Assembly (NCBI RefSeq): GCF_014196455.1
Contig: NZ_JACIDS010000006.1
Span: 1 to 64,000 of the forward strand
DNA length: 64,000 nucleotides
Direction of reading: 5' to 3'
Origin: Kaistia hirudinis
GTDB taxonomy: Bacteria > Pseudomonadota > Alphaproteobacteria > Rhizobiales > Kaistiaceae
Shown here: in pieces, positions 26,436 to 41,877 of the stretch
How the letters are laid out: each line of letters starts with the position of its first letter
How positions within the stretch are numbered: position 1 is the first letter of the stretch
Notes under the pieces: model-generated
Told to the model about the DNA's origin: nothing
The model's input: only the letters and a program-made list of their open reading frames with translations
Database searches by the model: none
Translations under genes and position numbers: made by a program

Positions 26436-28319
26436 TCACCCCGCAGCCAGTTGTTCGATGCGGCGCAGCCGCGCCGCGATGTCGCCGGTTCCATCGTCGG
26501 TCGCCTCGGCCGGCTGGTCGGAAGACGGGGCAGCGGCAGACCGCCCGCCGATCCGTTCGGCCACGCGATCGAGCCGGCGCGGCACATCGTCCGTCGGGGC
26601 GGGTGCGAAGAGGAGCATGGGCAGGAATGCCCGCGTCTCGGCGATCAGATCGCGCAATTCGGCGATGCGCGCGGCCGATGGGCGCTCCGAGGCCGGCTCG
26701 AACGGCAGCAGGGCCAGCTGTTCGCGCGCCTTGGCCGTCTCCGTCTCGATGATTTCCGCGTCCGCGAGGGCGGCGATCCGCGCGTCGGGCGCCAACGTCG
26801 CGAGGCGCGACAGTGCGGCGAAGACGCGCGCCAGCCGTTCGCGGATCTCGACGATGGCGCTCTTGGGCCAGATGCTCGTGAAGAAGAGATAGACGACGAC
26901 ATTGCCGAGTAGGATGCCGACGATGCGGTCGCGGCCGGAATCCATGCTGCTGCTCGGCGCGAAGCCGTCGAGCACCGTCAGCAGGAAGGCGAGCCCGACC
27001 TGGACGCCGGCATAGGAGATGCGCTCATTGCCGGTCGACACCCAGGCCGCCACGAGAATGGCGCCGAAGACCAGCGCCATCAGCCCGCCGACCGATTCGA
27101 GATGCGGGATGACGTAGAGGATGGAGAGGAAGCCCATCGCGGCGCCGACCAGGCAGCCGGTGATGCGGAGGATCAGCTTGTGAACCGTCTCGGCGGTGGT
27201 GCCGAGGGCAGCGACGTAGCAGGTGATCATCGCGGTGTGGATGCCCTGCCAGTTGATCAGCGAATAGATGAGGTAGCAGGAGATCGCCGCCGCCGTGGTC
27301 TTCAGCGCATAGCGCTGATAGTCGGGATTGGTGAAGGCGTCGGCGGCGAGGAAGGGCGGCTTGGCGGGTGCCTCGTCGGAGCCGCCATTTTGCTGCGACA
27401 ATCCCGCAAGCGCCGTGCGGAGGGCACCGAGCGCCGGCGCGTCCGTTGCCGAAGCTTGGCTCGTGCCCTCGGGGCGGTCGCCCTTGCCGACGGCGTCCGC
27501 TGCCGCGCGCAGCTGCCGCACGAGCCCGTCCCGGACGTCGCGTGTCATCTCCGCCGGCAGGGCAGCGATCGCGAGCATCAGGCGATAGCTGTTCATCGCC
27601 GCGCCGCGCAGCCAGGTGACATAGGCGGTCGGCGCCGTATGGAAGATTGTCGCCAGCATCGCCTGCTGGCCGATATCGGCATTGCCTTCGGCGAGCGGCG
27701 GCTGCACGCGTCCGGCGTCCGCCTCATCGAGTGCCTCGGCGGATGCCTTCAGACGTTCCACGATGGTGTCGCGCATCAGTTTGTGCGGCGAGGTGCCGAG
27801 CACGAGGTTGAAGACGATCATGAGCGCCATCGGCACGCAGGCCATCTGCCAGGCATAGAGCAGGCCGCGGGTCACGATCTCGCCGGCCGGAACCTGGTCG
27901 ACCAGCGTGAGAACGAAGACGATCACCAGCGCGATGATCGAGCCGATCTCGCCCAGCTGCGATGCGGCGCCGAGGAACACGAACACGAACGAAATCAGCG
28001 CCATCACGGCAATCCGCAGCAGCGGCGAATCGGCCGTCGCCTGCACGAGCGGCGCCATGGCGAGCACCACGACGCTGGCCAGGATGATCAGCCCGATCGA
28101 CTGCCCGACATTCTGGGCGCCGTTCGGCTTCATCAGGAAGATGATGAGATAGCAGCCGATGGCCGATTCCGGGATCTTGTAGACCATGGCGACGCCGGCG
28201 ACGATCGCGCAGAGCAGCGCGACCCGCCAGGTCATGGCAAGGCGGCCCGGGAAGGGCTGGAGGTCGCGCGCGGTCTGGCGTGCCACGGCGCGCCAGGGGA
28301 ACTCAGCAGCTCTGGCCAT
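26436..28319 (-). CDS. mdtO: FUSC-family inner-membrane efflux protein (MdtO/AaeB-like)
   Basis: This 627-residue protein has two hydrophobic halves of about five to six membrane segments each (residues about 30-185 and 345-480) separated by and followed by soluble helical regions. This is the FUSC/aromatic-acid exporter layout. IPESAIGCYLIIFLMKPNGAQN-type opening and NWQGIHTAMITCYVAALGTTAE are family-like. It overlaps mdtN by 17 bases. Such pumps export aromatic acids or amphipathic drugs; the substrate here is unknown. Confidence 0.88.
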   Translation of the reverse strand: MARAAEFPWRAVARQTARDLQPFPGRLAMTWRVALLCAIVAGVAMVYKIPESAIGCYLIIFLMKPNGAQNVGQSIGLIILASVVVLAMAPLVQATADSPLLRIAVMALISFVFVFLGAASQLGEIGSIIALVIVFVLTLVDQVPAGEIVTRGLLYAWQMACVPMALMIVFNLVLGTSPHKLMRDTIVERLKASAEALDEADAGRVQPPLAEGNADIGQQAMLATIFHTAPTAYVTWLRGAAMNSYRLMLAIAALPAEMTRDVRDGLVRQLRAAADAVGKGDRPEGTSQASATDAPALGALRTALAGLSQQNGGSDEAPAKPPFLAADAFTNPDYQRYALKTTAAAISCYLIYSLINWQGIHTAMITCYVAALGTTAETVHKLILRITGCLVGAAMGFLSILYVIPHLESVGGLMALVFGAILVAAWVSTGNERISYAGVQVGLAFLLTVLDGFAPSSSMDSGRDRIVGILLGNVVVYLFFTSIWPKSAIVEIRERLARVFAALSRLATLAPDARIAALADAEIIETETAKAREQLALLPFEPASERPSAARIAELRDLIAETRAFLPMLLFAPAPTDDVPRRLDRVAERIGGRSAAAPSSDQPAEATDDGTGDIAARLRRIEQLAAG

Positions 28320-29352
28320 GGTGCACGGTTACAGTCGCGGAGGCTCCGATACGCATCAGCTCGTCGGGCGGATCAAGCAGGCGGATCCGGACGGGAAAGC
28401 GCTGCGCGACGCGCACCCAGTCTAGATTCTTCGGCACGATCGGCATGGTGCGCGGAAGGTTGATCACGTCCTGCGAAGCGACGCCCCAACCCGTCCCCTC
28501 GACGCGGCCACGGATCGGGACCGTCCGGTCCGCGAGCGTGTAGACGGTCGCGCAATCACCCACCGCGATGGACGGCAGTTCCGTCTCGAGGAACGCGGCC
28601 GAGGCGAACCATTCGGCGGTGTCGATCAGCGTGAAGACGGACTGGCCGGTGAGGACATATTCGCCCGGCGAGGTCGCGAGCCCGACGACCTTGCCGGCAA
28701 ACGGCGCCCGGATCGTTGCATCGTCGAGCGCCCGCTGCGCGATCGCCAGCGCCGCGCGGCGGGCCTCCACCAAGGCGATGGAAGCGGCGGCGTTGCTGAC
28801 CAGCGCGTCGGCCGCCTCCTCCTGATGCAGCGCCTGACGGAGGCTCACCTCCGCGTCGCGCTTGGCCGTCGCGGCATCGTCGACCTGCTGCGCGCTCACA
28901 TAGCCCTTGGGGCGGAGCGCCTGCAGCCGCGCGAGCGTCTGCGTGGCGAGGTCCAGATTCGAACGCGCGCGCGAGACCTGCTCGGTCGCGATGACGGCAT
29001 TGGAGCGCTCGGCGGAGACGGTGCGCGCCTGGTCGGCCTCGGCGGCTTCGGCGATCTTCAGATCGGCTTCCGCCTGTTCCACGGCGAGGCGGAAGGGCAC
29101 CGGGTCGAGCGCGAACAGCAGCTGGTCCTTGGCGACCGTCTGGTTCTCCTTGACGTCGATGGCCGCGATGCGCCCGGGAACCGCCGAGGAGATGTTCACG
29201 ACGCTCGCCGTCAGCACGGCGTCCTGCGACAGCGGGTTGAGATCGGCATTGCGGAAATAGCGCATTCCGAGAAACACCGCCGCGGCGACGGCGGCGAGGC
29301 TCACGACGACGCCGACGGCCTGGGCGGCGCGGGGCTTGTGATCCGGATGCAA
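28303..29352 (-). CDS. mdtN: HlyD-type periplasmic adaptor of an efflux pump (MdtN-like)
   Basis: This 349-residue membrane-fusion protein has one N-terminal membrane anchor (residues about 10-30), split lipoyl halves (VNISSAVPGRIAAIDVKENQ and TIRAPFAGKVVGLATSPGEY) flanking a coiled coil, then a beta-barrel domain (LIDTAEWF). The end DWVRVAQRFPVRIRL...RIGASATV resembles E. coli MdtN. The start is TTG 29352, supported by GGGAG upstream; only three bases separate it from the ytcA stop. Confidence 0.88.
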   Translation of the reverse strand: MHPDHKPRAAQAVGVVVSLAAVAAAVFLGMRYFRNADLNPLSQDAVLTASVVNISSAVPGRIAAIDVKENQTVAKDQLLFALDPVPFRLAVEQAEADLKIAEAAEADQARTVSAERSNAVIATEQVSRARSNLDLATQTLARLQALRPKGYVSAQQVDDAATAKRDAEVSLRQALHQEEAADALVSNAAASIALVEARRAALAIAQRALDDATIRAPFAGKVVGLATSPGEYVLTGQSVFTLIDTAEWFASAAFLETELPSIAVGDCATVYTLADRTVPIRGRVEGTGWGVASQDVINLPRTMPIVPKNLDWVRVAQRFPVRIRLLDPPDELMRIGASATVTVHHGQSC

Positions 29353-29968: not shown

Positions 29969-30946
29969 TCAGCCCTTCACGAAGGCGAGCAGGTCCGGAT
30001 TGATGGTATCGGCGTGGGTGGTCAGCATGCCGTGCGGGAAGCCCGGATAGATCTTGAGCGTGCTGTTCTTGACCAGCTTGGCCTGGAGCAGCGCGGCGTC
30101 CTTGTAGGGCACCACCTGGTCATCGTCGCCCTGCAGGACGAGCGTCGGCACGGTGATCGCCTTGAGGTCGTCCGTCTGGTCCGTCTCGGAGAAGGCCTTG
30201 ATGCCCTCGTAATGCGCCAGCGCGCCGCCCATCATGCCCTGGCGCCACCAATTCTGGATGATGCCCTGCGAGACCTTCGCGTCCGGCCGGTTGAAGCCGT
30301 AGAAGGGGCCCGAGGCGACGTCGAGATAGAACTGGGAGCGATTGGCGGCGAGCGCCGAGCGGAAGCCGTCGAACACCTCGATCGGCGTGCCGTCGGGATT
30401 GCCCGGCGTCTTCACCATCAGCGGCGGAATGGCGGCGACGAGCACGGCCTTGGCGACGCGGCCCTGCGGCTGGCCGAACTTCGCGACATAGCGGGCGACT
30501 TCGCCGCCGCCGGTCGAATGGCCGATATGGATGGCGTTCTTGAGGTCGAGATGCTCGGCAACGGCAGACGCGTCGGCCGCATACTGGTCGATGGTGTTGC
30601 CGGTGGAGACCTGCGAGGAGCGGCCATGGCCGCGCCGGTCATGGGCGACGACGCGATAGCCGTTCGCCAGGAAGAACAGCATCTGGTTGTCCCAGTCGTC
30701 CGAGGACAGCGGCCAGCCGTGATGGAAATGGATCGGCTGGGCGTCCTTCGGACCCCAATCCTTGAAGAAGATCTCGGTGCCGTCGCTCGTCTTGATGAAT
30801 CCGCTGCTCATGACGTGGTTTCCTTCTGCGTTGAGGTGTGGGGTTGAGGCCTGCGCAAGGGTCCGGGCGGAGAGGAAAGCCGCCGCGAGACTGGTCGTTC
30901 CGGCGAGGAACGCTCGCCGGGTGGGGGTGAAGCCGTGGCTGGACAT
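29969..30946 (-). CDS. Tat-exported alpha/beta hydrolase, non-haem chloroperoxidase type
   Basis: This 325-residue protein starts with a twin-arginine signal ([18 protein letters not shown]10-R11) and a cleavage region near LAQAS, followed by an alpha/beta hydrolase: [12 protein letters not shown] (oxyanion), nucleophile Ser in IGHSTGGGE, Asp in QGDDDQVVP and His in YPGFPHGM. It resembles cofactor-free bacterial haloperoxidases/esterases (peracid-forming). Most of that family are cytoplasmic, so the Tat signal is notable. A 37-codon ORF ends five bases upstream, a candidate regulator site lies further upstream, and a strong terminator follows. The physiological substrate is unknown. Confidence 0.88.
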
Positions 30947-31065: not shown

Positions 31066-31144
31066 GAATTCGCTCCCGAGCCGTTGACTTGATCAGGCTA
31101 TGACTCGGGGGGCAGTCTTTGAATTCTACGCTCGGTTCATTGGG

Positions 31145-31161
31145 TCATACGAAGGTGTGGG
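31145..31161 (-). promoter_or_regulatory. 17-bp element, copy A (upstream of sORF-hydrolase)
   Basis: On the minus strand it reads CCCACACCTTCGTATGA. It matches the consensus CCYAMAC-N4-GTATGA shared by four intergenic sites at 31.1-34.4 kb. It lies 80 bases upstream of the small-ORF start and is oriented toward that gene. It probably binds the FixJ-type regulator encoded nearby (inference). Confidence 0.6.
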
Positions 31162-31188
31162 TTCGCGCCCGGCATAAGGCCAGGGCGA

Positions 31189-31566
31189 TCAGGCCGGCCG
31201 GCGCGTGACGGCCTCGGCCAGATGATGGGCGATTGCGTCGCCATCGGCGGGCTTGTCGAGGAAGCAGCAGGCGCCCGCGGCCATCACGCGCTCGCGCGTC
31301 GCCCGGGTCGGGAAAGCCGTCATGAAGATCATGGGGAAGCGGCGTCCCGCCGCGATGAGCGCGGCCTGGAGCTCGTCGCCGCTCATTTCCGGCATCTGGA
31401 TGTCGGCGATCATGCAGTCCGGATCGCCGTTCAGCTCGTCGGCGAGGAAATCGACCGCGGACGCATAGCTGCGGGCGTCATAGCCGAGCGAGCGCACGAG
31501 GCTCGCGAGCGAGGTGCGGACGCCGTGATCGTCGTCGACGATGGCGATGATGGGCGGTTGAGCCAT
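31189..31566 (-). CDS. single-domain response regulator (receiver only)
   Basis: This 125-residue receiver domain has no output domain. The acidic pocket is in IVDDDHG (residues about 9-15), the phosphoacceptor is D55 (MIADIQMPEMSG), followed by MTAF and K in FLDKPADG. It could act as a phosphate sink or allosteric partner of the histidine kinase encoded at 32334-34214. It has its own upstream copy (B) of the 17-bp element, suggesting feedback control by the FixJ-type regulator. Confidence 0.9.
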   Translation of the reverse strand: MAQPPIIAIVDDDHGVRTSLASLVRSLGYDARSYASAVDFLADELNGDPDCMIADIQMPEMSGDELQAALIAAGRRFPMIFMTAFPTRATRERVMAAGACCFLDKPADGDAIAHHLAEAVTRRPA

Positions 31567-31655
31567 TCCTTGATGTCCTTCGCGCCGTGTCGCACGAAAG
31601 AAGCGTCCGATGCGCGGCCTTAGCTCTATATGGCGCCCCGAAGCCCGCTACGGAA

Positions 31656-31672
31656 TCATACGGAGGTTTGGG
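31656..31672 (-). promoter_or_regulatory. 17-bp element, copy B (upstream of the single-domain receiver)
   Basis: It reads CCCAAACCTCCGTATGA on the minus strand and lies 90 bases upstream of the receiver gene start, oriented toward it. It is in the short spacer after the FixJ-type regulator's stop codon, so the receiver gene probably has its own promoter. Confidence 0.6.
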
Positions 31673-31680
31673 CCGCCGCC

Positions 31681-32337
31681 TCAGTTACGCGCAATGCCGA
31701 GCGCCTCGGCCTTGCGGACGAGGTCGGCGAGCGAGCGGACGCCCATCTTGCGCATGACATTGCCGCGATGGATCTTCACCGTGATCTCGCTGAGGCCGAT
31801 CAGCCCGGCGACCTGCTTGTTCATCAGCCCGGCGACGACGTGGCCCATGACCTCGCGCTCGCGCGGCGTCAGCGTTTCATATTCAGCCCGCAACCCGTCC
31901 CGCGCGGCGCTGTCGCTGCGCCGCTGCCGGTCGCGCTCGATCGCCGCCGTGACGGCATCCAGCATGTCCTGGTCGCGAAAAGGCTTGGCCAGAAAGTCGA
32001 CGGCGCCGGCCTTCATTGCCCGCACGCTCATCGGGATGTCGCCATGGCCGGTCATGAAGACGATCGGCAGCAGGATGCCGTGCTTTGCCAGCTGCGCCTG
32101 AAAATCGAGGCCGCTGATGCCGGGAAGGCGCACGTCAAGAATGAGGCAGCCGACGAGGTCGGGGAGCTTGTCCTGAAGCAATTCGGCCGGGGAGCCATAG
32201 AGGCGCGTTGCGAGCCCGATCGACCGGATGAGGCTGTCGAGCGAATCCCGCACGGCCGCGTCATCATCGACGATGACGACGAGCGGCAGCGCGCTGGAGG
32301 GCGTCGAAGCGCCACGTGTCGAGTTCGGACCGGTCAT
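31681..32337 (-). CDS. FixJ/NarL-type response regulator
   Basis: This 218-residue transcription factor has a receiver domain (phosphoacceptor D68 in LILDVRLPG; T in FMTGHGDIPMSVRAMKAGA; K in FLAKPF) and a LuxR-type helix-turn-helix at residues about 150-205 (LTPREREVMGHVVAGLMNKQ, TVKIHRGNVMRKMGV). Its ATG overlaps the kinase stop (ATGA), so the two form one cognate pair. It is the most likely protein to bind the four 17-bp elements around this locus. Confidence 0.93.
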   Translation of the reverse strand: MTGPNSTRGASTPSSALPLVVIVDDDAAVRDSLDSLIRSIGLATRLYGSPAELLQDKLPDLVGCLILDVRLPGISGLDFQAQLAKHGILLPIVFMTGHGDIPMSVRAMKAGAVDFLAKPFRDQDMLDAVTAAIERDRQRRSDSAARDGLRAEYETLTPREREVMGHVVAGLMNKQVAGLIGLSEITVKIHRGNVMRKMGVRSLADLVRKAEALGIARN

Positions 32338-34214
32338 GCCGATGCTCCTGCCGGTGGCGCGGGAAGCGACAGGCGGAAGGTCGCGCCCCCGCCGGGGCGG
32401 CTCTCGACCGACAGCGCGCCGCCATGAGCTTCCGCGGTCGTGCGGCAGATCGCAAGGCCCATACCCATGCCCTGTTCCTTGGTCGTGAAGAAGGGATCGA
32501 ACAGCCGTTCCAGGTGATCCGCGGCAATGCCGGGTCCAGTGTCGGCGACCGTTATCGTGATCATGTCCGCGGACGCCAGCGCGGCTTCGATCGAAAGCCG
32601 TCGCTCTCCCGGATGATCGGCCATGGCCTGGGCGGCGTTGACCATGAGGTTGACCAGGACCTGCTGCAGCTGGATCCGATCTCCGATCACCGCCGGCAGT
32701 CCTGGCGCGACCGCAATGCCCGGCGTCACGCCGGCGCGCGCCAGCTCGCGTTCGACCAGTTGCACCGCCTCGGCCACGAGATCCGCAATGTCCAGTTCGT
32801 CGCGTTGCTCGGGCGCCTTTCTGAGGAAGGCGCGGACCCGCTTCACGATCTCGCTCGCCCGCCGTCCTTCGGCGACGAGCCGCGTGATCGATGCCTCGAC
32901 CTCGACGAGGTCGGGCGGCTCGCGCCGCATCCAGCGCATCGCCGCCTCGCCATTGGTGACCACGGCCATCAGGGGCTGGTTGACCTCATGCGCGATCGAA
33001 GCGGTCAGCTCGCCGAGCGTGGCGACGCGGGCGGCATGAGCGAGTTCAGCCTGAGCCGCCAGCACGGCCTCCTGTGCCTCCTTGCGCTCGGTGATGTCGA
33101 CGACGAACACCAGCGCGTTGCTGTCCGGATCATCCGGCTTCGGGAAGGTGATCGCGAAGATGACGGGAACGCGGCGGCCGTCGATGTGGACGATCTCCGT
33201 CTCGCCTTCATAGAAGCTCTCGCCGCGCGCGAAGGCAGCAAGCGCCCTGGCAAAAGTGTCGTCCCGCTCGGAGAGCACGTCGTCGACGGTCTCGATGAAC
33301 TCCGACGCGCTCCCGGCGCCGACCATGGACAGGAAGGCCGGATTGACGTCGACGATCGGTGTCAGTCCGCGGGCCTCGGCCATGAATTCGGGGTGCGCGA
33401 CGAGATACGCCTCGAGCGTCTGGCCCTCGGCGAGGGGCAGGGCCGCGAGCGCCGCCCCGACGCCGTTCCAGTCCTCCTGGACGACGCCGATGCGGCTCGC
33501 ATCGAACATGCGCCGGTAGCGTCGCTCGCTGCGGACCAGCGCCGCATAGGCCGCCCGCCGTTCGGTAACGTCCGTATGGGTCTCGAGAACTCCGATCGGC
33601 CGGCCCAGCGCGTCGCGCCGCAGCGCCCAGCGGCTCTCGACGACGAGGCGGGCGCCCGACCGCGTGGATTGCTCCAGCGTGCCGTCCCAGCGCCCGGTCT
33701 CGAACAGGGTCGATTCGATTGCGGCCCGGTCGTCCGGATATCGCGTCTGAAGCAGTTCGTCGGCGACGCGCCCGATCGCCTCCTCGAACGACCAGCCATA
33801 GATCTCCTGCGCCGCGTTGTTCCAGAAGATGATGACGCCGGTCGCGTCGCGGACGAAGATCATGTCGTGCGACAGGTCGAGCAGCTGCGCCTGTGCCACG
33901 AGACGTCCGGTGGCGGCCTGGTTCTGCAGCGCGAGCATGGTGGCGATGCCGATCGCGGCCAGGCTCACGATCGCGCGGAGCGTCGCGGCGCCGGCGTGCT
34001 CGAAGCCATGCGAGACGCCATAGGCCGAGAGCGTCAGGGCGAAGGCCACGGCCGCGGCGACGAGGATGTCGCGGCGGTGGCCCGTCCGGGCAGCCAGCAG
34101 GATGACGAGGACATAGAGGACCGCCACGGCGCCTTCGAGCGGCGAGAGCAGGTCGAACAGGAAGATCGCGACGGCGAGGACGGCCGCCGCGGCGCGGGAT
34201 GCGGTGGCGCTCAT
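32334..34214 (-). CDS. membrane PAS-domain sensor histidine kinase (FixL-like)
   Basis: This 626-residue kinase has a four-segment N-terminal membrane region (residues about 8-97), PAS 1 (about 105-225, HDMIFVRDATGVIIFWN), PAS 2 (about 230-380), and a HisKA domain with the phosphoacceptor H409 in ASIAHEVNQPL. The HATPase domain has VLVNLMVNAAQAM and ADTGPGI, ending in GMGMGLAICRT. The short membrane head looks like an integral sensor with almost no periplasmic loop. The input signal is unknown. It is translationally coupled to the FixJ-type regulator and has an upstream copy (C) of the 17-bp element. Confidence 0.92.
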   Translation of the reverse strand: MSATASRAAAAVLAVAIFLFDLLSPLEGAVAVLYVLVILLAARTGHRRDILVAAAVAFALTLSAYGVSHGFEHAGAATLRAIVSLAAIGIATMLALQNQAATGRLVAQAQLLDLSHDMIFVRDATGVIIFWNNAAQEIYGWSFEEAIGRVADELLQTRYPDDRAAIESTLFETGRWDGTLEQSTRSGARLVVESRWALRRDALGRPIGVLETHTDVTERRAAYAALVRSERRYRRMFDASRIGVVQEDWNGVGAALAALPLAEGQTLEAYLVAHPEFMAEARGLTPIVDVNPAFLSMVGAGSASEFIETVDDVLSERDDTFARALAAFARGESFYEGETEIVHIDGRRVPVIFAITFPKPDDPDSNALVFVVDITERKEAQEAVLAAQAELAHAARVATLGELTASIAHEVNQPLMAVVTNGEAAMRWMRREPPDLVEVEASITRLVAEGRRASEIVKRVRAFLRKAPEQRDELDIADLVAEAVQLVERELARAGVTPGIAVAPGLPAVIGDRIQLQQVLVNLMVNAAQAMADHPGERRLSIEAALASADMITITVADTGPGIAADHLERLFDPFFTTKEQGMGMGLAICRTTAEAHGGALSVESRPGGGATFRLSLPAPPAGASA

Positions 34215-34381
34215 GGGCGGCTGCTGGCTGAGGCCGGCCCCGCCTGGGCGCAGGCTACAGCCTCGGATTCCGACCGCGCCGCCTCATCCGCTCTTCTCGC
34301 AACCATCGTCCCCGCCAGTCCCTTTGTTCGCGCGCGCGAACCATTCAGACGACAGTCGCATCAAATCCGTGCGGCAGGAAG

Positions 34382-34398
34382 TCATACAGGAGTTTAGG
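34382..34398 (-). promoter_or_regulatory. 17-bp element, copy C (upstream of the histidine kinase)
   Basis: It reads CCTAAACTCCTGTATGA on the minus strand, 168 bases upstream of the kinase start and oriented toward it. With copy D it forms an inverted pair separated by 17 bases. Confidence 0.6.
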
Positions 34399-34415
34399 GG
34401 GCGGGCCCACCGAGG

Positions 34416-34432
34416 CCTAAACCGAGGTATGA
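34416..34432 (+). promoter_or_regulatory. 17-bp element, copy D (upstream of dps)
   Basis: It reads CCTAAACCGAGGTATGA on the plus strand, 147 bases upstream of the dps start and oriented toward it. It suggests that dps belongs to the same regulon as the two-component genes. Confidence 0.58.
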
Positions 34433-34578
34433 GCCGGCCATCCGCAAGGGCGATGGAGGCAGCGAGAGCCGGAATTTAGGTTGGGTGCATCGGACAGCGA
34501 GCCCGGCGATGACGGGTTTCTCCGGTCCCGGCGGGCATGAGCCCAGCCGGCCGTCCACCCAAGCGAGGATCTTCGATC

Positions 34579-35097
34579 ATGAGCGAACTCTCCGTTGCCG
34601 GGCGCCAGGCCGCCCCGCTCCACACCCCGACCGATCTCGGCGCCGAGGCCACGGCGGATATCGCGGCGGCGCTGACCGGCGTGCTCGCCGACATGTTCGC
34701 GCTCTATCTCAAGACCAAGAATTTCCACTGGCATATGTCGGGGCCGCATTTTCGCGACTATCACCTGATGCTCGATGAGCAGGGCGACCAGATCTTCGCG
34801 ACGACCGATGCGCTCGCCGAACGGGCCCGCAAGGTCGGCGGCACGACGCTGCGCTCGATCGGCCATATCGCCCGCCTCCAGCGCCTGCTCGACAATGATG
34901 CGGCCTATGTGACGGCGCAGGACATGATCGCCGAACTCGCCGACGACAATCGCCGCCTGACTGGCTTTCTGCGCGCAGCGCATGGCGTCTGCGAGACGCA
35001 TAACGACGTGGCCTCGACCAGCCTCATCGAAGTGTGGATCGACGAGGCCGAGCGGCGGAGCTGGTTCCTGTTCGAGGCAACCCGCGCGCCTCGCTGA
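34579..35097 (+). CDS. dps: Dps-family DNA-protecting ferritin
   Basis: This 172-residue Dps protein forms a 12-mer that oxidises and stores iron using H2O2 and shields DNA in stress. The inter-subunit ferroxidase region is visible as KNFHWHMSGPHF followed by LDEQGDQIF, with a second conserved stretch DVASTSLIEVWIDEAERRSW near the C-terminus. The ATG at 34579 follows AAGCGAGG. A hairpin follows the stop. A decayed, internally deleted copy of this gene plus its hairpin lies at 45.9-46.1 kb. Confidence 0.94.
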   Translation: MSELSVAGRQAAPLHTPTDLGAEATADIAAALTGVLADMFALYLKTKNFHWHMSGPHFRDYHLMLDEQGDQIFATTDALAERARKVGGTTLRSIGHIARLQRLLDNDAAYVTAQDMIAELADDNRRLTGFLRAAHGVCETHNDVASTSLIEVWIDEAERRSWFLFEATRAPR

Positions 35098-35161: not shown

Positions 35162-38100
35162 TCAGAAGTCGATGCTGAACTTCGCGCCGAGCGTCTGTGC
35201 CGTCGTCGTGCTACCGAAGGCGCCCTGGTAGTTGATGCGCACCACCATGCCGTTGCCCGGCATGAGGTCGGCACCGGCGCCGACCTTCCACAGAACCTGG
35301 TCCATCGTCGCGCTGACGGTGAAGGGATCGGTGATGGTGTCGGCGGCGAAGGACCCGACCAGCTTGGCCTCGTCGTTCGAATAGACCGTCACGCCGCCAC
35401 GCACATAGGGCCGCAGCAGGAAGTCGTTCGCCAGCGCCACCTGCCCGCCGAACTCGACGGCCGGGGTGGCGCTGTAGACGGTTTGGCTCGACCCGTCGAT
35501 GCTCACCGCCGTGATGCCGCCCGTTTCCGTGAACGCACTCTGGTTCGAATAGACGGCGTCGAAATCGATCTGCGGCTTGGCGTAGAGGTTCGCCGACTGC
35601 AGCGTATAGGCGGCACGCAGCCTTGCATCGAGCACGCCGAGATTGGACGTGCCGGACAGGTTGTCGTTGATCGTGCCGAAGGAGACCGTGCGGTTGGCGT
35701 CATAGGCGCCGTAGCTGCCCGAGAGAGACGCTGCGAGCAGCAGCGGCCCGGGCACGTATTTGATGACCGCGCCGCCGTTGAAGGCATTGATGCTGCTCGA
35801 TCCGCCCTGATTGTCGCGGATATTGCCGCTGGTCGCGCCGAGCGCGAAGCCGACGCGCCAGTCGCTCGCGGTGGCGAACTGGGCGCCGCCTGCGAAGTTC
35901 CACGTGTCGCTGTCATAGCCGACATTGCTCGCCGTGGCGTCCTGCTGAAGGTTGCGATAATCGCCCCTCAGCCAGAAGCACTGGCCTTCGGCACCGAAGT
36001 AATTGGCGCCGCCCTCGACCTTGCAGCTCATCAGGCTGTCGGAGAAGTCGGAGATGCCGATCGTCGCGGCCTGCTCATTGGCGAGGTAGATGTTCGGCGA
36101 CATCTGGTTGAGCGCCACGTTCACCGCGCCGAGCAAATTGAGATTCACCAGGTTCTGGGCGATCGGGTAGAGCGCGCTGGTATTGTTGATGCTGCGGTTC
36201 AGATAGGCGCCGATCGGAATGCCGTTCCCGGTCACGCCCGCGGGCGCGAAGTTGAAGCCGTCGATGACGAGCGTGGCGCTGTCCGAGCCTTGCCCGTAGT
36301 CGATGGAGCTGATCACCACTGGGTTGTAATAGGAGAGGCTCTTCTCCGTGACGCCCTCGCCGGTCGTCAGGAAGGTGTAGCGCTGCGCGCCGGCCTTGAA
36401 GTTCTCGAAGTTGACGCCGAGCGTGCCGGCGAGGCTTGCCGAGCCGCTGACATTGACGACGTCCGAGAGGCTGTTCGCCATGTCGACGTCGATCGCCAGC
36501 GTGCCGAGCGGCGTGTTCACCAGCGATCCGGTGAAGGCCGTGGTCGCCACCGTGCCCTTGCCGCCGATGGAGAGCGTGCCGCTATTGGTCAGGACGCCGG
36601 CGGTCCCGATATCGACCGTGTTGCCCATGTCGAACAGCGCGCCGCTGGCGTTGTTGAACGTGTTGTCCCAGTTGGCCAGGTCGACATTGCCGATGATCGT
36701 GCCGTAGTTGGTGATCGCCGTCGTCGTGTAGATCTGGTCGACATCGCTCGCCTGGATGGCAAGGGCGTTGATGCCGGCCGTGTTCTGGATCGTGCCGTAA
36801 TTGGTGAGCGTGTTGGCCGCGCCGATGTCGAAGCTGACACCTGCGCCGCCGGCGCCGCCCTGGACCGTCCCGCCACTGATCGTGACGCCGAGATTGCCGT
36901 AACCGCCGACCTCAATGCCGCTGACGGCGCCCCAGATGTTGCCATTCGTGGCGACGGAGACAGCAGCCTGCGACGAGGTGGCGTGGATGCCGTCGCCGCC
37001 CCAGGCGGTGATGTCGCCGGTATGAACGACCGATACGGACTGGTCGTCGCTCTGGTTGCTGGCGACGATGCCGTCGGCGCCCGCGACGATGTTGCCGCTG
37101 CTGATCACGCTCACGCCGGCGCGGGCGGACGATGCCCTGATGCCTGCGCCGGTCGTGGAGGTGACGTTGCCGGTCTGCGTTACGGAGACGCCTTCCGCGT
37201 CGCTCTCATTGCTGGCCGCGATGCCGTCCAGATAGGCCGTGATGGCGCCGGAGTTCACGACAGAGACGAGCCCGGTCGGCGAGATGGCGGCGATGCCGCG
37301 ACCGGACAGGGCGTCGATGCTCCCGCCGGAATGCGCGATGGTCACGGCGCCGCCGCCGAGATTGGACGCGCTGATGCCGTCGATCTGGGCCAGGATTGTC
37401 CCGACGCTCGCAACCGAGATCATGCCCGAAAGCGAGGACGCCGTGATGCCGGAGCCGGCGTCGGAGGTGATCGATCCGTTCTGGGAGACCGATATCGATC
37501 CGTTGGCCCGCGTCGATGCGTTGATGCCGTCGAAATAGGCCGCCAGGGCGCCACTCGCCGTGACCGACACGTCGCCGCCGAAGGACGACGCCGAGATGGC
37601 GGTTCCGCCCTCTGCAGTCACACCATCATTCGCCGTGACGCTGACGGCGGCGGTGTCGCTGCCATTGTTGGCATAGATGCCGTCGAGCTTCGCGGAGACG
37701 GCGCCATCAGCGACCACCGTGACGGACCCGTTCGACGACGTCGCGACGATGCCGGTGCCGACGTCAGCGAGAACGGTTCCCGTCTGCGATACGGAAACGG
37801 CACCCGAACCCGAATTCGTCGCCGAGATGCCGGCCGCGCCCTCGAGCGCACCGATGGAGGTGATCGTGACGTCGCCGCCGATCGCGCTCGCGACGAGCGC
37901 CGTGCCGTTCTCGGCATAGACGTCGCCCGTCTGCGTGATGGTGACGCTCGTGGCAGTGCCGAGCGTCGCGGCCTGGATGCCGTCATTGGCGGCGCCGATC
38001 GCGCCGACATTGGTCACGCTGACGGCGCCGAGCGACGATGTCGCGATGATGCCGCTGCTGCCCCAGGAGGCGATGTCGCCCGAGCGGTTGACCGTGACCG

Positions 38101-41100
38101 CGCCGGCGCTGGTATTGAAGGCGTAGATGCCGGCCTGCTGCGCGGCGATGTCACCCGAACCGGTGACGCTCACCGTGCCGGACGGCGCGCTGGCATAGAT
38201 GCCGTAGCCACTGAGCGAGACGAGATCGCCGGTCTGGTTGACCGAGGTCGAGGCGCTGTTGGCGAGGGCGTAGACGGCGGTGTCCTGCGCGAGGATGTCG
38301 CCCGTCCCGAGGACGCTGACATTGCCGTTGGGAGAATGGGCATTGATGCCGTAGCGGCCGGCAATGATCGTGCCGGACTGGTCGACGGTCACCGGGCTCG
38401 AAGACGTGTTGCTGGCGTTGATGCCATCCTCGGCGGCAGCGATCGTGCCGACATTGGTCACGCTGACGGCACCGAGTGCCGAGGTCGCGATGATGCCGCT
38501 GCTGCCCCAGGAAATGATGTCGCCGGTGCGGTCGACCGTGATGGCGCTGGCGCTGTTGTTCGAGACCGAGATGCCCGCCTCCTGCGCGGCGATGTCGCCG
38601 GTGCCGGTGACGCTCGCCGTGCCGTTGGGCGCGCTGACATAGATGCCGTAGCCGCCGAGCGAGACGAGATCGCCGGTCTGATTGACCGAGGCGGACGCGC
38701 TGTTGGCGAGAGCGTAGACGGCGGTGTCCTGCGAGGCGACGTCACCCGTGCCGAGCACGCTGACATTGCCGCTGGGCGAGTGGGCATAGATGCCGTAGCC
38801 GCCGGCGAAGATGGCGCCCGACTGATCAATAGTAACGGCGCTCGACGATGTGTTGCTGGCGTTGATACCGTCGTCGGCGGCGATGATCGTGCCGGCATTG
38901 GTCACGCTGATGGCGCCGAGTGATGCTTTGGCGACGATGCCGCTGCCGTCGAAGGACGTGATGTCGCCGGTGCGATCGACTGTCACCTTGCCCATGCTGG
39001 TCGCATAGACGCCCGTCTCGAGCGACGTGATGTCGCCGGAGCCGGTGACGGTGGTCGTGCTGGCCGGCGCGCTGGCATAGATGCCGTAGCCATCGATCGA
39101 GGTGATGTCGCCGGACTGATGGACGCTGACCGTCGCGCTGTCGGCGACAGCGTAGACGCCGGTATCCTGCGCGGTGATATCGCCGGTGCCGAGCACATTG
39201 ACGGCCCCTTGCGGCGAAGTGGCGTAGATGCCGTAGCCGCCGGCAAGGATGGAGCCGGACTGGTCGACCGTCACGGCATTCGCGGAGCCGTTGACGGCAT
39301 AGATGCCGTCCTTCGCGACGTCGATCGTGCCGTCATTCGTGACGCTGACGGCGCCGAGGGTCGCGGTCGCGACGATGCCGCTGCCGTTCTGGGAATAGAT
39401 TTCGCCGGAGCGGTCGACCGTGGCGGAGCCCGTGCCGAGGGTCGTAGCCATGATGGCGGTGTCGCCCGACGCCACCCTGCCGGAGCCCGTCACGGAGACG
39501 CCGCCCCATGGGGTGCTCGCATAGATACCGTAGCCGCCGAACGAGACGATTTCGCCGGACTGGTTGACCGAGACGTTGCCGCCATCGGCCAGCGCATAGA
39601 CGGCGGTGTCGCCCGACAGGATGTTGCCGGTCCCGAGCACGTTCACCGAGCCATTGGTCGAATAGGCGTAGATGCCGTGGTCGAGGGCGATGATGGAACC
39701 GGACTGATCGACCGTCACGGGGCTGGCGGACTGGTTGGTCGCCGAGATGCCGTCGTCGGCGGCGATGATCGAGCCGGAATTGGTCACGCTGACCGCGCCG
39801 ATCGACGAGACGGCGATGATGCCGCTTCCGCTCTGGGAATTGATATCGCCGGAGCGATCGACCGTTGCGGTCCCGTAGCTTGCCGCATAGAGCGCCGTCT
39901 GCTGCGCGGCGATCGAGCCGGAACCGGTCACGGACACCGTGCTGAAGGGCGAGCTGGCATAGATGCCGTAGCCGCCGGACGAGACGATGTCGCCAGTCTG
40001 GTTCACCGAGGTGGCGGCGCCATCGGCGAGCGCATAGACACCCGTATTGCCGGACTGGATGTCGCCCGTGCCGAGCACGCTGACGGAGCCGTTGGTCGAA
40101 TAGGCATAGATGCCATAGCCGCCGGCCGTGATCGAGCCGGACTGGTCCACGGTGACGGCGCGATCTGACGTGTTCTGGGCCTGGATGCCGTCGCCGGCAG
40201 CGATGATCGCACCGGAATTGGTGACGCTGACGATGCCGCGCGAGGCCAGCGCGACGATGCCGCTGCCGCTCAGGGAGGTGATGTCGCCGGAGCGATCGAC
40301 GGTCGCGGGGGTGTAGTTGCCCGTGCTGTCGACATAGACGCCGGTCTTCTCGGACAGGATCGATCCCGACCCCGTCACGCTGGCGGCGCCGTCCGGCGCA
40401 TAGACATAAATGCCGTTGCCCGCGTGCGAAACGATGTCGCCGGTCTGGTTCACCGTGGCGCTGCTGCTGTCCGCCAGGGCGTAGACGCCGGTGTCATAGG
40501 CGTCGATGTCGCCGGTGCTGACGACATTGACCGTGCCGTTGGAGGAATGGGCGTAGATGCCCATCCCGCCCGAGGAGAAAATCTCGCCGGTCTGGTCGAC
40601 CGTCAGGCTGCTGGTCGATGTGTTCTCGGCAGAGATACCGGTGTAGCCCGAGCGGATCGTGCCGTCATTGGTGACGGATACCGCGCCATTGGCGGCGGAG
40701 GCGAAGATGCCGTAGCCGCTCGTCGCGTCGATGTCGCCGGTATGGTCGACCGACACCAGGCTGCCGTCGCTCGAGGTCGCGTAGATGCCGTTCGTGGCGG
40801 CCCGGATGTCGCCGTTGACGGTGACCGAGACGTCGCCGGTCGGCCCGACGCTGCCGGACGAGGCAGCGTAGACACCGTTCGCCGTCGTCGAGGTGATGTT
40901 GCCGGTGTGGTCGACCGTGACGTCGCCGGAGCCGTGGCTCTCGAGGTGGATCGCGTTAAGGCCCGCGACGAAATCGCCACGGCTCGTCTCCGAGACGTCG
41001 CCCTGACCCCAGAGATAGATGGCGTGGGCGTCCTCGGCCGTAATGTCGCCGCGCTGCACGAGCGTGACGTCGCCGCTCTCGTGGCTCACCAGACCGATAC

Positions 41101-41725
41101 CGTCGGTCTTCACGTCGATATCGCCGACGACGACCGCCGCGATCGCGCCATTGGTGTCGGCATTGATGCCGGCGCCGCCGGAAGAGGTGAGGTCGCCGAG
41201 CTGGCGGATGTCGATGGCGCCGCTGTCGGTGCCATGCAGGCGGATGGTGTCGAGCGCGGCATCGATGTCGCCGCGATTGTTCAGCGTGATGGTGCCGCCG
41301 GTCTCGACATTGATGCCCGAGCCATCCTGCGAGGTGATGTCGCCGCGGTTGCGGATGGCGACGGCCCCCGTGCCGAAGCTCTTGGCCGAGATGCCGTCGG
41401 CGCCGAGCCCGCTGACCGCGATCGCGTGGGTTCCGAGCTGGCTGTTGATGGTGATCGCGCCATTGGTCTCGAAGCTGATGCCGTCGACCCCGGGGGCAGG
41501 GGTAATGTCGGTGTTGAGGAAGCCGATATTGAGCGCGGTGATCGGATCGGTCAGCGAGACGCCGGACGACACGTTGCCGCCGCAGAACACCGTGGTGCCG
41601 AAGACGAAACAGGCCGCCCAGGCCTGGCCGCCCGGCATCAGCACGGCGGTGCTGAGCGCGGCGCCGGCGAGGAGGGCCTTTCGTCCGAACCGGGAAGGAC
41701 GGTTCGGACGCGCAAGGTGCGTCAT
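35162..41725 (-). CDS. giant repeat-rich autotransporter (type Va secretion)
   Basis: This 2187-residue surface protein has three parts. The first is a signal peptide (FGRKALLAGAALSTAVLM...AWA|A, cut near residue 37). The second is a very long glycine/serine/valine-rich passenger built of repeats of about 24 residues (pattern GIYA-S-G-VSV-G-G-I), predicted to form a beta-helix. The third is a C-terminal beta-barrel (about the last 290 residues, ending in the typical aromatic residue: KFSIDF). Six of the higher-order repeats, 146-150 residues each, are nearly identical (separate entry). Low-cysteine composition is usual for such passengers. The likely role is adhesion or biofilm formation. A glycosyltransferase and a small coupled ORF lie immediately upstream. 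Confidence 0.92.
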   Translation of the reverse strand: MTHLARPNRPSRFGRKALLAGAALSTAVLMPGGQAWAACFVFGTTVFCGGNVSSGVSLTDPITALNIGFLNTDITPAPGVDGISFETNGAITINSQLGTHAIAVSGLGADGISAKSFGTGAVAIRNRGDITSQDGSGINVETGGTITLNNRGDIDAALDTIRLHGTDSGAIDIRQLGDLTSSGGAGINADTNGAIAAVVVGDIDVKTDGIGLVSHESGDVTLVQRGDITAEDAHAIYLWGQGDVSETSRGDFVAGLNAIHLESHGSGDVTVDHTGNITSTTANGVYAASSGSVGPTGDVSVTVNGDIRAATNGIYATSSDGSLVSVDHTGDIDATSGYGIFASAANGAVSVTNDGTIRSGYTGISAENTSTSSLTVDQTGEIFSSGGMGIYAHSSNGTVNVVSTGDIDAYDTGVYALADSSSATVNQTGDIVSHAGNGIYVYAPDGAASVTGSGSILSEKTGVYVDSTGNYTPATVDRSGDITSLSGSGIVALASRGIVSVTNSGAIIAAGDGIQAQNTSDRAVTVDQSGSITAGGYGIYAYSTNGSVSVLGTGDIQSGNTGVYALADGAATSVNQTGDIVSSGGYGIYASSPFSTVSVTGSGSIAAQQTALYAASYGTATVDRSGDINSQSGSGIIAVSSIGAVSVTNSGSIIAADDGISATNQSASPVTVDQSGSIIALDHGIYAYSTNGSVNVLGTGNILSGDTAVYALADGGNVSVNQSGEIVSFGGYGIYASTPWGGVSVTGSGRVASGDTAIMATTLGTGSATVDRSGEIYSQNGSGIVATATLGAVSVTNDGTIDVAKDGIYAVNGSANAVTVDQSGSILAGGYGIYATSPQGAVNVLGTGDITAQDTGVYAVADSATVSVHQSGDITSIDGYGIYASAPASTTTVTGSGDITSLETGVYATSMGKVTVDRTGDITSFDGSGIVAKASLGAISVTNAGTIIAADDGINASNTSSSAVTIDQSGAIFAGGYGIYAHSPSGNVSVLGTGDVASQDTAVYALANSASASVNQTGDLVSLGGYGIYVSAPNGTASVTGTGDIAAQEAGISVSNNSASAITVDRTGDIISWGSSGIIATSALGAVSVTNVGTIAAAEDGINASNTSSSPVTVDQSGTIIAGRYGINAHSPNGNVSVLGTGDILAQDTAVYALANSASTSVNQTGDLVSLSGYGIYASAPSGTVSVTGSGDIAAQQAGIYAFNTSAGAVTVNRSGDIASWGSSGIIATSSLGAVSVTNVGAIGAANDGIQAATLGTATSVTITQTGDVYAENGTALVASAIGGDVTITSIGALEGAAGISATNSGSGAVSVSQTGTVLADVGTGIVATSSNGSVTVVADGAVSAKLDGIYANNGSDTAAVSVTANDGVTAEGGTAISASSFGGDVSVTASGALAAYFDGINASTRANGSISVSQNGSITSDAGSGITASSLSGMISVASVGTILAQIDGISASNLGGGAVTIAHSGGSIDALSGRGIAAISPTGLVSVVNSGAITAYLDGIAASNESDAEGVSVTQTGNVTSTTGAGIRASSARAGVSVISSGNIVAGADGIVASNQSDDQSVSVVHTGDITAWGGDGIHATSSQAAVSVATNGNIWGAVSGIEVGGYGNLGVTISGGTVQGGAGGAGVSFDIGAANTLTNYGTIQNTAGINALAIQASDVDQIYTTTAITNYGTIIGNVDLANWDNTFNNASGALFDMGNTVDIGTAGVLTNSGTLSIGGKGTVATTAFTGSLVNTPLGTLAIDVDMANSLSDVVNVSGSASLAGTLGVNFENFKAGAQRYTFLTTGEGVTEKSLSYYNPVVISSIDYGQGSDSATLVIDGFNFAPAGVTGNGIPIGAYLNRSINNTSALYPIAQNLVNLNLLGAVNVALNQMSPNIYLANEQAATIGISDFSDSLMSCKVEGGANYFGAEGQCFWLRGDYRNLQQDATASNVGYDSDTWNFAGGAQFATASDWRVGFALGATSGNIRDNQGGSSSINAFNGGAVIKYVPGPLLLAASLSGSYGAYDANRTVSFGTINDNLSGTSNLGVLDARLRAAYTLQSANLYAKPQIDFDAVYSNQSAFTETGGITAVSIDGSSQTVYSATPAVEFGGQVALANDFLLRPYVRGGVTVYSNDEAKLVGSFAADTITDPFTVSATMDQVLWKVGAGADLMPGNGMVVRINYQGAFGSTTTAQTLGAKFSIDF
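37946..40603 (-). repeat. six tandem 438-450 bp super-repeats inside the autotransporter
   Basis: Counting from the TVDQ-type starts, units begin at 40603, 40153, 39715, 39271, 38833 and 38389 (reading leftward), giving periods of 450, 438, 444, 438 and 444 bp. Each unit encodes six beta-helix turns (TVDQSGSI, VLGTGDI, VNQTGDI, VTGSGSI, VDRSGDI, VTNSGTI). Whole-codon period changes keep the frame. Copies 5 and 6 look most alike at DNA level. The array should be prone to copy-number change by recombination. Confidence 0.9.
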
Positions 41726-41760
41726 TGCGCGGCGCCTGGCCGGTGCTCTGTGCTGCGAGT

Positions 41761-41877
41761 TCAAGACTGGTTCCCCCGAACGCCCCGGACGTCGATCCCT
41801 GTGGCTTCCACAGCGACCCCGCCCATTTCCAACCATTCCCGGCTCACGCCGGACTTCAAATTCTCGACGCCGCTCAT
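41761..41877 (-). CDS. small ORF (38 residues) coupled between glycosyltransferase and autotransporter
   Basis: The ATG overlaps the glycosyltransferase TGA (ATGA) and the frame runs 38 codons, beginning MSGVENLKSGVSREWLEMGG and ending VRGVRGNQS, with its stop 35 bases before the autotransporter ATG. The overlap geometry matches other true coupled pairs in the window. The peptide is soluble in character with mixed charge. I do not recognise it. It may be a real small protein or a coupling frame that carries ribosomes to the autotransporter start. Confidence 0.42.
   Translation of the reverse strand: MSGVENLKSGVSREWLEMGGVAVEATGIDVRGVRGNQS

Follow-up and report, generated by a model that had tools for sequence, protein, structure and literature searches.

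Four copies of one motif at a FixJ/StyR-type two-component locus of Kaistia hirudinis: a predicted operator set with conserved promoter geometry

The window considered here is the whole stretch of 64,000 nucleotides (nt) from Kaistia hirudinis (contig NZ_JACIDS010000006.1, positions 1 to 64,000 of the forward strand), and our subject is a two-component locus within it, where the genes of a histidine kinase, a response regulator, a single-domain receiver and an alpha/beta hydrolase lie on the minus strand and the gene of a Dps-like ferritin (dps) diverges from them. Four copies of the motif CCYAMAC-N4-GTATGA are set among these genes, one upstream of each of four transcription units. A first-pass annotation, made from the DNA letters alone, had proposed that they mark an undescribed regulon of the regulator encoded in their midst. 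The genes and sites are the following.

29969..30946, minus strand: alpha/beta hydrolase, in the non-heme chloroperoxidase family; N-terminus twin-arginine-like (by reading); matches chloroperoxidase L (1a88), E 1.3e-133
31145..31161, minus strand: site A (CCCACACCTTCGTATGA), strong distal box upstream of the hydrolase; exact match; equivalents in L031, L037, L038, L042, L057 and L065
31189..31566, minus strand: single-domain receiver, FixT-like by arrangement; Pfam PF00072 only; 78-row alignment
31656..31672, minus strand: site B (CCCAAACCTCCGTATGA), between regulator and receiver; exact match; 60 of 79 related loci have a box behind the regulator gene, on the same strand
31681..32337, minus strand: response regulator, receiver plus LuxR/GerE DNA-binding domain (Pfam PF00072, PF00196), the predicted binder
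32334..34214, minus strand: histidine kinase with hydrophobic N-terminus (by reading), two PAS regions, HisKA and HATPase (Pfam)
34382..34398, minus strand: site C (CCTAAACTCCTGTATGA), upstream of the kinase; exact match; kinase class of 7 loci including the window
34416..34432, plus strand: site D (CCTAAACCGAGGTATGA), upstream of dps; exact match; dps class of 14 loci with the window
34537..35097, plus strand: Dps-like ferritin (start possibly 34580); Pfam PF00210; PDB stress proteins 8ff9 and 2chp

An exact scan of the window for CCYAMACN4GTATGA returned these four sites, where they had been placed before. At each of them the GTATGA end faces its own gene; the copies, earlier called same-sense, are alike in this respect and differ in strand, with A, B and C on the minus and D on the plus strand. 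Site A lies 79 bases from the start codon of a 37-amino-acid open reading frame (ORF; start 31065) and 198 from that of the hydrolase, site B 89 from that of the receiver, site C 167 from that of the kinase, and site D 104 or 147 from that of dps, depending on the choice of start. Throughout the genome (5,259,388 bases in 14 contigs) the pattern has four exact matches, all at this locus, the reversed pattern has none, and one further exact match to the core of the motif is found at C2:456766. Relaxing the pattern brings no larger set of weak sites into view, since with up to two mismatches the genome holds 39 matches against 59 for the reversed control, and with up to three the window holds 10 against a shuffle average of 14.4. 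Because the relaxed matches show no excess over their controls, the signal rests in the exact sites; on the two-mismatch counts, no larger regulon was found in this organism.

The four sites might, of course, be a functionless cluster that arose by chance or from a repeat, and the fact that the pattern was composed after the sites had been seen speaks for caution here: the window statistics alone are weak, and it is the relatives that supply the independent test. Yet none of 100 dinucleotide shuffles of the window contained a match, which agrees with the earlier claim that such copies are hard to get by chance, and the box is kept in related loci as described next. On the genome-wide scan, the shuffles and this conservation together we reject a chance cluster, whose probability we regard as negligible.

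Relatives were gathered by searching a genome collection with the regulator, and the best 80 of at least 511 confirmed relatives were analysed (945,380 bases). Thirty-six of the 80 loci contain the core AMACN4GTATGA, 63 times in all, against 2 occurrences of the reversed core, and Bradyrhizobium loci carry a variant box ending GTATAA or GTATAG between regulator and receiver. When the form YAMACN4GTATRR is sought on the same strand within 170 nt after the regulator match, it is present in 60 of 79 loci (L105, whose contig ends there, was left out), with none on the opposite strand and none for the reversed pattern; in control segments from the same loci it occurs in 46 of 10,014, true module sites elsewhere being among these.

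Gene order was compared with the window proteins as queries against the related loci. The complete order, namely dps (divergent), kinase, regulator, receiver and hydrolase, is found in two Bosea loci (L037, L038) and in a metagenome-assembled genome of Hyphomicrobiales (L042), and in all three the boxes face dps, kinase, receiver and hydrolase. The module order with three strict boxes recurs in Lysobacter L057 and Lysobacteraceae L065; two strict boxes are found in Bordetella L058 and Devosia L041, and one each in Achromobacter L062 and Stenotrophomonas L046, L059 and L067, while relaxed boxes add further sites to the partial modules (Devosia, Lysobacter, Stenotrophomonas, Bordetella, Achromobacter). 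Stenotrophomonas L031 stops at a contig edge, and another contig of that genome, L180, holds the kinase end, a box and dps. Module order and boxes thus recur in alpha-, beta- and gammaproteobacteria, and the proposal that a single motif ties one two-component regulator to four target units gains from the fact that site, orientation and position are kept in other genera. Two side observations concern these loci. At L042:8388 (minus strand) a box and promoter much like those of the Bosea FAD-monooxygenase stand without that gene downstream, possibly as a remnant of gene loss; and in a record labelled Mycobacterium sp. KBS0706 (L060, L110) the regulator, the receiver and, in L060, dps are close to proteobacterial ones, so that the label is probably wrong.

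The distribution of strict sites bears on the question of which protein reads the boxes. In 15 genomes, chosen for the strict sites in their loci, YAMACCNNNGTATGA occurs 40 times, and the reversed control in none of the 15. Thirty-seven of the 40 fall within module loci (regulator +/- ~6 kb, or the L180 contig), and the three others, in G048, G051 and G052, were read by eye and are assumed to be chance matches. One might suppose that the boxes are bound by another regulator, or by a sigma factor, that also controls the locus, the neighbouring FixJ/StyR-type regulator being a bystander, and those three sites away from the module, together with the predicted status of the binder, would leave room for such a factor. 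A global factor, however, would be expected to leave sites genome-wide, and in these genomes, selected as they were, nearly all sites are at the module. The congeners of the window organism argue the same way: they have no excess of strict sites (a single one in each of 4 of 13, with the reversed control also in 4), and yet seven of them hold a linked but diverged module, with regulators 60–68% identical and with variant boxes in at least six. We consider binding by another factor quite improbable.

The boxes also share a promoter geometry. YAMACN4GTATRR sites were grouped according to the gene that follows, and redundancy was reduced to below 75% identity, leaving as non-redundant promoters 12 for dps (from 15), 5 for hydrolase (from 7), 42 for receiver (from 66), 6 for kinase (from 7) and 25 for other genes (from 32). 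When a second box on the same strand was sought at 43 offsets, 21 bp was the best offset in the dps, hydrolase and 'other' classes, its score being reached by none of 500 shuffles of the downstream DNA in each class; in receiver sites it is not favoured. Eleven of the 12 dps promoters, all but that of L091, have TANNNT at 45 nt beyond the box, and so have all 5 hydrolase promoters (shuffle maxima 2 and 1, respectively); the window has both, TAGCCT for the hydrolase and TAGGTT for dps, at nt 45. In receiver promoters a CATAA/TATAG-like word occurs at nt 24–26 after the box (18 of 42; shuffles average 0.24, maximum 3). The corresponding predicted features of the window are listed here.

31095..31100, minus strand: TAGCCT, predicted -10 element of the hydrolase; all 5 hydrolase promoters have TANNNT at this place, nt 45
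31124..31138, minus strand: weaker second box (GAACCGAGCGTAGAA), 21 bp downstream of site A; offset 21 best for the hydrolase class
31625..31632, minus strand: predicted -10 of the receiver promoter (within CATATAGA); -10-like word at nt 24–26 in 18 of 42
34439..34453, plus strand: second box, weak, lying 21 bp beyond site D; offset 21 best for the dps class
34477..34482, plus strand: TAGGTT, predicted -10 element of dps; 11 of the 12 dps promoters have TANNNT at this place, nt 45

There are, then, two predicted promoter types: the receiver type, with one box ~24 nt before the -10, and the dps and hydrolase type, with a strong box and a weaker one 21 bp on. The two geometries agree in that about 24 nt separate the -10 from its nearest box, the weaker box occupying that position in dps and hydrolase promoters and the strong box lying two helical turns upstream of it. 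This arrangement bears on the sign of regulation. The regulator might repress these promoters, or act in both directions as StyR does; phosphorylated StyR (StyR-P) bound to two sites forms a repressive loop, according to the available part of the source (PMC2442086), and tandem boxes are present here as well. Since at dps, hydrolase and receiver the predicted -10 comes after the boxes, and since a spacing of 21 bp fits side-by-side binding, repression appears unlikely, and we favour activation.

Among solved structures (PDB) the best match of the regulator is StyR (1yio, 198.9 bits), ahead of FixJ (5xso, 156.4 bits), which corrects the earlier name 'FixJ-type' as far as structures go; among NCBIfam models FixJ (NF006900) is best at 199.2 bits, below the curated cut-off of 255. 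In the parts of the literature available, ATAAACN4GTTTAT is given as a sequence that StyR-like regulators may recognise and Lys175, Val176 and His179 of StyR as putative DNA contacts (PMC5874301), and StyR-P is reported to activate from a site at about -40 and to bind two sites cooperatively (PMC2442086). Set beside the StyS/StyR and TodS/TodT systems of aromatic catabolism in Pseudomonas, the present one is alike in its NarL/FixJ-type regulator, with StyR as the nearest solved structure, in the AAAC-N4-GT core, which is all that the predicted box has in common with ATAAACN4GTTTAT, and, so far as those partial sources go, in an activating site near -40 with a cooperative second site. It differs in that the box ends GTATRR here and GTTTAT there, in that the three putative contact positions read Lys, Ile and Gly in the window regulator (alignment, by reading), in its predicted targets, which are dps, hydrolase and receiver instead of catabolic operons, and in the one kinase core found here.

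The kinase resembles FixL (NCBIfam NF041777, 215.5 bits, below the curated cut-off of 850) over residues 369-620 only, and a separate search likewise confined the FixL similarity to the kinase core, 371-620. FixL-type haem sensing by this kinase is not supported, as the similarity covers the kinase core only and no FixL sensor region was matched. The system is thus like FixL-FixJ-FixT in its kinase core, its regulator family and a receiver-only gene with the predicted operator of the regulator, and unlike it in the restricted kinase match, in a regulator below the FixJ cut-off and in its targets.

The receiver is FixT-like in being a receiver-only protein whose gene carries the predicted operator of an adjacent FixJ-type regulator. 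FixT brakes the kinase FixL (PMC7078487, available in part), and a FixT-like brake on the kinase is the most likely role for the window receiver by analogy. It might instead take up phosphate as a sink or connect to another pathway as an adaptor: the phosphorylation Asp, the acidic residues and the C-terminal Lys are visible in it (alignment, by reading), and for Sinorhizobium meliloti FixT the available part of the same source states that phosphorylation was not detected. Position, predicted co-regulation and receiver-only architecture nevertheless fit the FixLJT arrangement, and we treat the sink or adaptor as a serious but less probable alternative to the brake. Iron-sulphur (Fe-S) sensing was also considered. 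The four-Cys Fe-S-binding motif is described, in the available part of PMC7078487, as unique to Caulobacter FixT; with no more than three Cys (51, 100 and 101) the window receiver lacks a four-Cys motif, and sensing of that kind is rejected. Cys51 is invariant in the 78-row alignment, a few rows of which are receiver parts of regulators.

As for the targets, the hydrolase matches chloroperoxidase L with 448 bits over residues 49-324, which places it in the non-heme chloroperoxidase / perhydrolase family, with a predicted activity of that kind. It had been taken for an exported enzyme; its N-terminus here is twin-arginine-like, while in three of six relatives (L031, L057, L065) the protein starts at the mature part, without a signal peptide (by reading). 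The 37-amino-acid 'unknown peptide' that had been included among the targets is not supported: in L031, L037, L038, L042, L057 and L065 no similar ORF lies between box and hydrolase, L042 having an unrelated one of 32 amino acids, and we rejected a conserved small peptide before the hydrolase. The ferritin scores 63.2 bits against the NCBIfam Dps model NF006975, below the curated cut-off of 114, and we call it Dps-like because that cut-off is missed while PF00210 and the PDB stress proteins are matched. Dps is a stress output, and its known control is through OxyR, Fur and general stress sigma factors, whereas here dps has the predicted operator of an adjacent two-component regulator. Elsewhere a peroxiredoxin-like gene stands behind a box in two congeners (L129, L131), and a FAD-monooxygenase-like gene is among the box targets in Bosea L037 and L038 and in L060 (both by reading). 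Because the targets are Dps-like and chloroperoxidase-type, and elsewhere peroxiredoxin-like or FAD-monooxygenase-like, oxidative stress would be a reasonable signal, and the set suggests protection against oxidants as the role of the circuit. In the same two congeners (L129, L131, L185, L186) the box stands before a peroxiredoxin-like and a DsbA-like gene (by reading), ~13 kb from the module.

Taking these observations together, we consider it very probable that the four sites are operators of the regulator at 31681-32337, which would bind them when phosphorylated and activate transcription in a kinase-fed circuit. The first-pass annotation had the sites correct, and in the regulator it very probably named the right binder, a prediction that co-occurrence and nearness to StyR, with its shared AAAC-N4-GT, both support. 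In the scheme that we propose, the kinase, probably in the membrane, phosphorylates the regulator, and the phosphorylated dimer would bind YAMAC-N4-GTATRR and activate all four units. The one strong box of the receiver gene would closely precede the predicted -35 region, its centre falling near -44 as counted from the predicted -10, and at dps and hydrolase the weaker box would take the equivalent place downstream of the strong one; the second box 21 bp on suggests cooperative binding of two dimers at these two promoters. Through site C the circuit would also feed the unit that encodes its kinase and regulator, and the receiver would brake the kinase as FixT does FixL. With its single strong box the receiver promoter might respond first and the tandem promoters later.

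A number of points weigh against this account. Nineteen of the 79 relatives have no box in the 170 nt after the regulator (L060, L070, L071, L072, L074, L075, L082, L084, L086, L087, L088, L090, L093, L094, L102, L103, L106, L107 and L110), several of them carrying one elsewhere in the locus. Among 40 relatives of the window organism YAMACCNNNGTATGA is not enriched, with 10 matches against 18 for the reversed control (14 in 10 of 41 genomes, against 18, when the window's own genome with its 4 is counted); the strict motif thus lacks enrichment where this form of the regulator is absent. Kinase sites have neither a tandem box (best offset score matched by 252 of 500 shuffles) nor a shared -10, and 'other' sites share no TANNNT at nt 45, the best being 3 of 25 at nt 38. 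Receiver sites show a weak and unexplained peak at offset 38, reached by no shuffle, and fewer than half of their promoters have the -10-like word. In this genome the second box of site D is a poor match, and the putative StyR contact residue His179 is Gly in the window regulator.

A tree was built of 43 regulators: the window's, those of 36 of the 80 loci and those from six loci of congeners. Starred branches (97/88, 97/96) set off a group of 15 rows, which takes in all seven congener rows and leaves out the window regulator; the window's own side of the tree has support of 84/82 and is not starred. The window regulator's highest identity, among the matches listed, is 83%, to Bosea L038. These relations fit a replacement of the module by transfer, and ancient duplication and loss could also account for them. 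As a tentative extension, which we hold to be somewhat short of an even chance, a self-contained stress circuit would travel between proteobacterial classes with its own operators, its single-box receiver promoter firing first and its tandem promoters, of dps and the chloroperoxidase-type enzyme, only at higher phosphorylation of the regulator, and in Bradyrhizobium the box would have spread into a dispersed regulon.

A separate scan was made for the Bradyrhizobium-type box (Bradyrhizobium loci L194, L196, L202, L203, L208, L217 and L218, around 1501) in 8 genomes (6 Bradyrhizobium, 1 Afipia and 1 Methylobacterium), where YAMACCTNNGTATRR has 27 matches against 2 for the reversed control, at least 10 at modules and the rest dispersed. 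Several of the dispersed sites share a -10 stretch like TACCTNCGTACAATTGA, of which 5 of the 8 genomes contain 12 copies with at most one mismatch, the control giving none; the genes downstream of dispersed sites include NYN-like and small Cys-rich proteins (by eye).

What is described here does not amount to a new category of system: it is a circuit of the FixLJT/StyR type, distinguished by its own operator and targets. As to its having been called undescribed, no description of the regulon or of the box was found in the open literature, among the matches listed, though subscription papers were mostly outside the search and absence from print is not established. For a FixJ/StyR-type system of many soil and plant-associated bacteria the analysis supplies an operator together with its candidate regulator and its targets, by which the signal of the system becomes testable with single promoters. 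If the proposal is true, a Dps-like protein and a non-heme chloroperoxidase-type enzyme would stand under one dedicated sensor, and the module would be an example of operators and regulator travelling as one.

Two neighbours of the module may be recorded. Genes for an MdtN-like adaptor and an MdtO/FUSC-like permease adjoin the hydrolase (26436-29352, minus strand), with no box before them at up to three mismatches. On the other side, 35162-41836 (minus strand) is an ORF of 2224 amino acids with many imperfect internal repeats and an autotransporter-like C-terminus (by reading).

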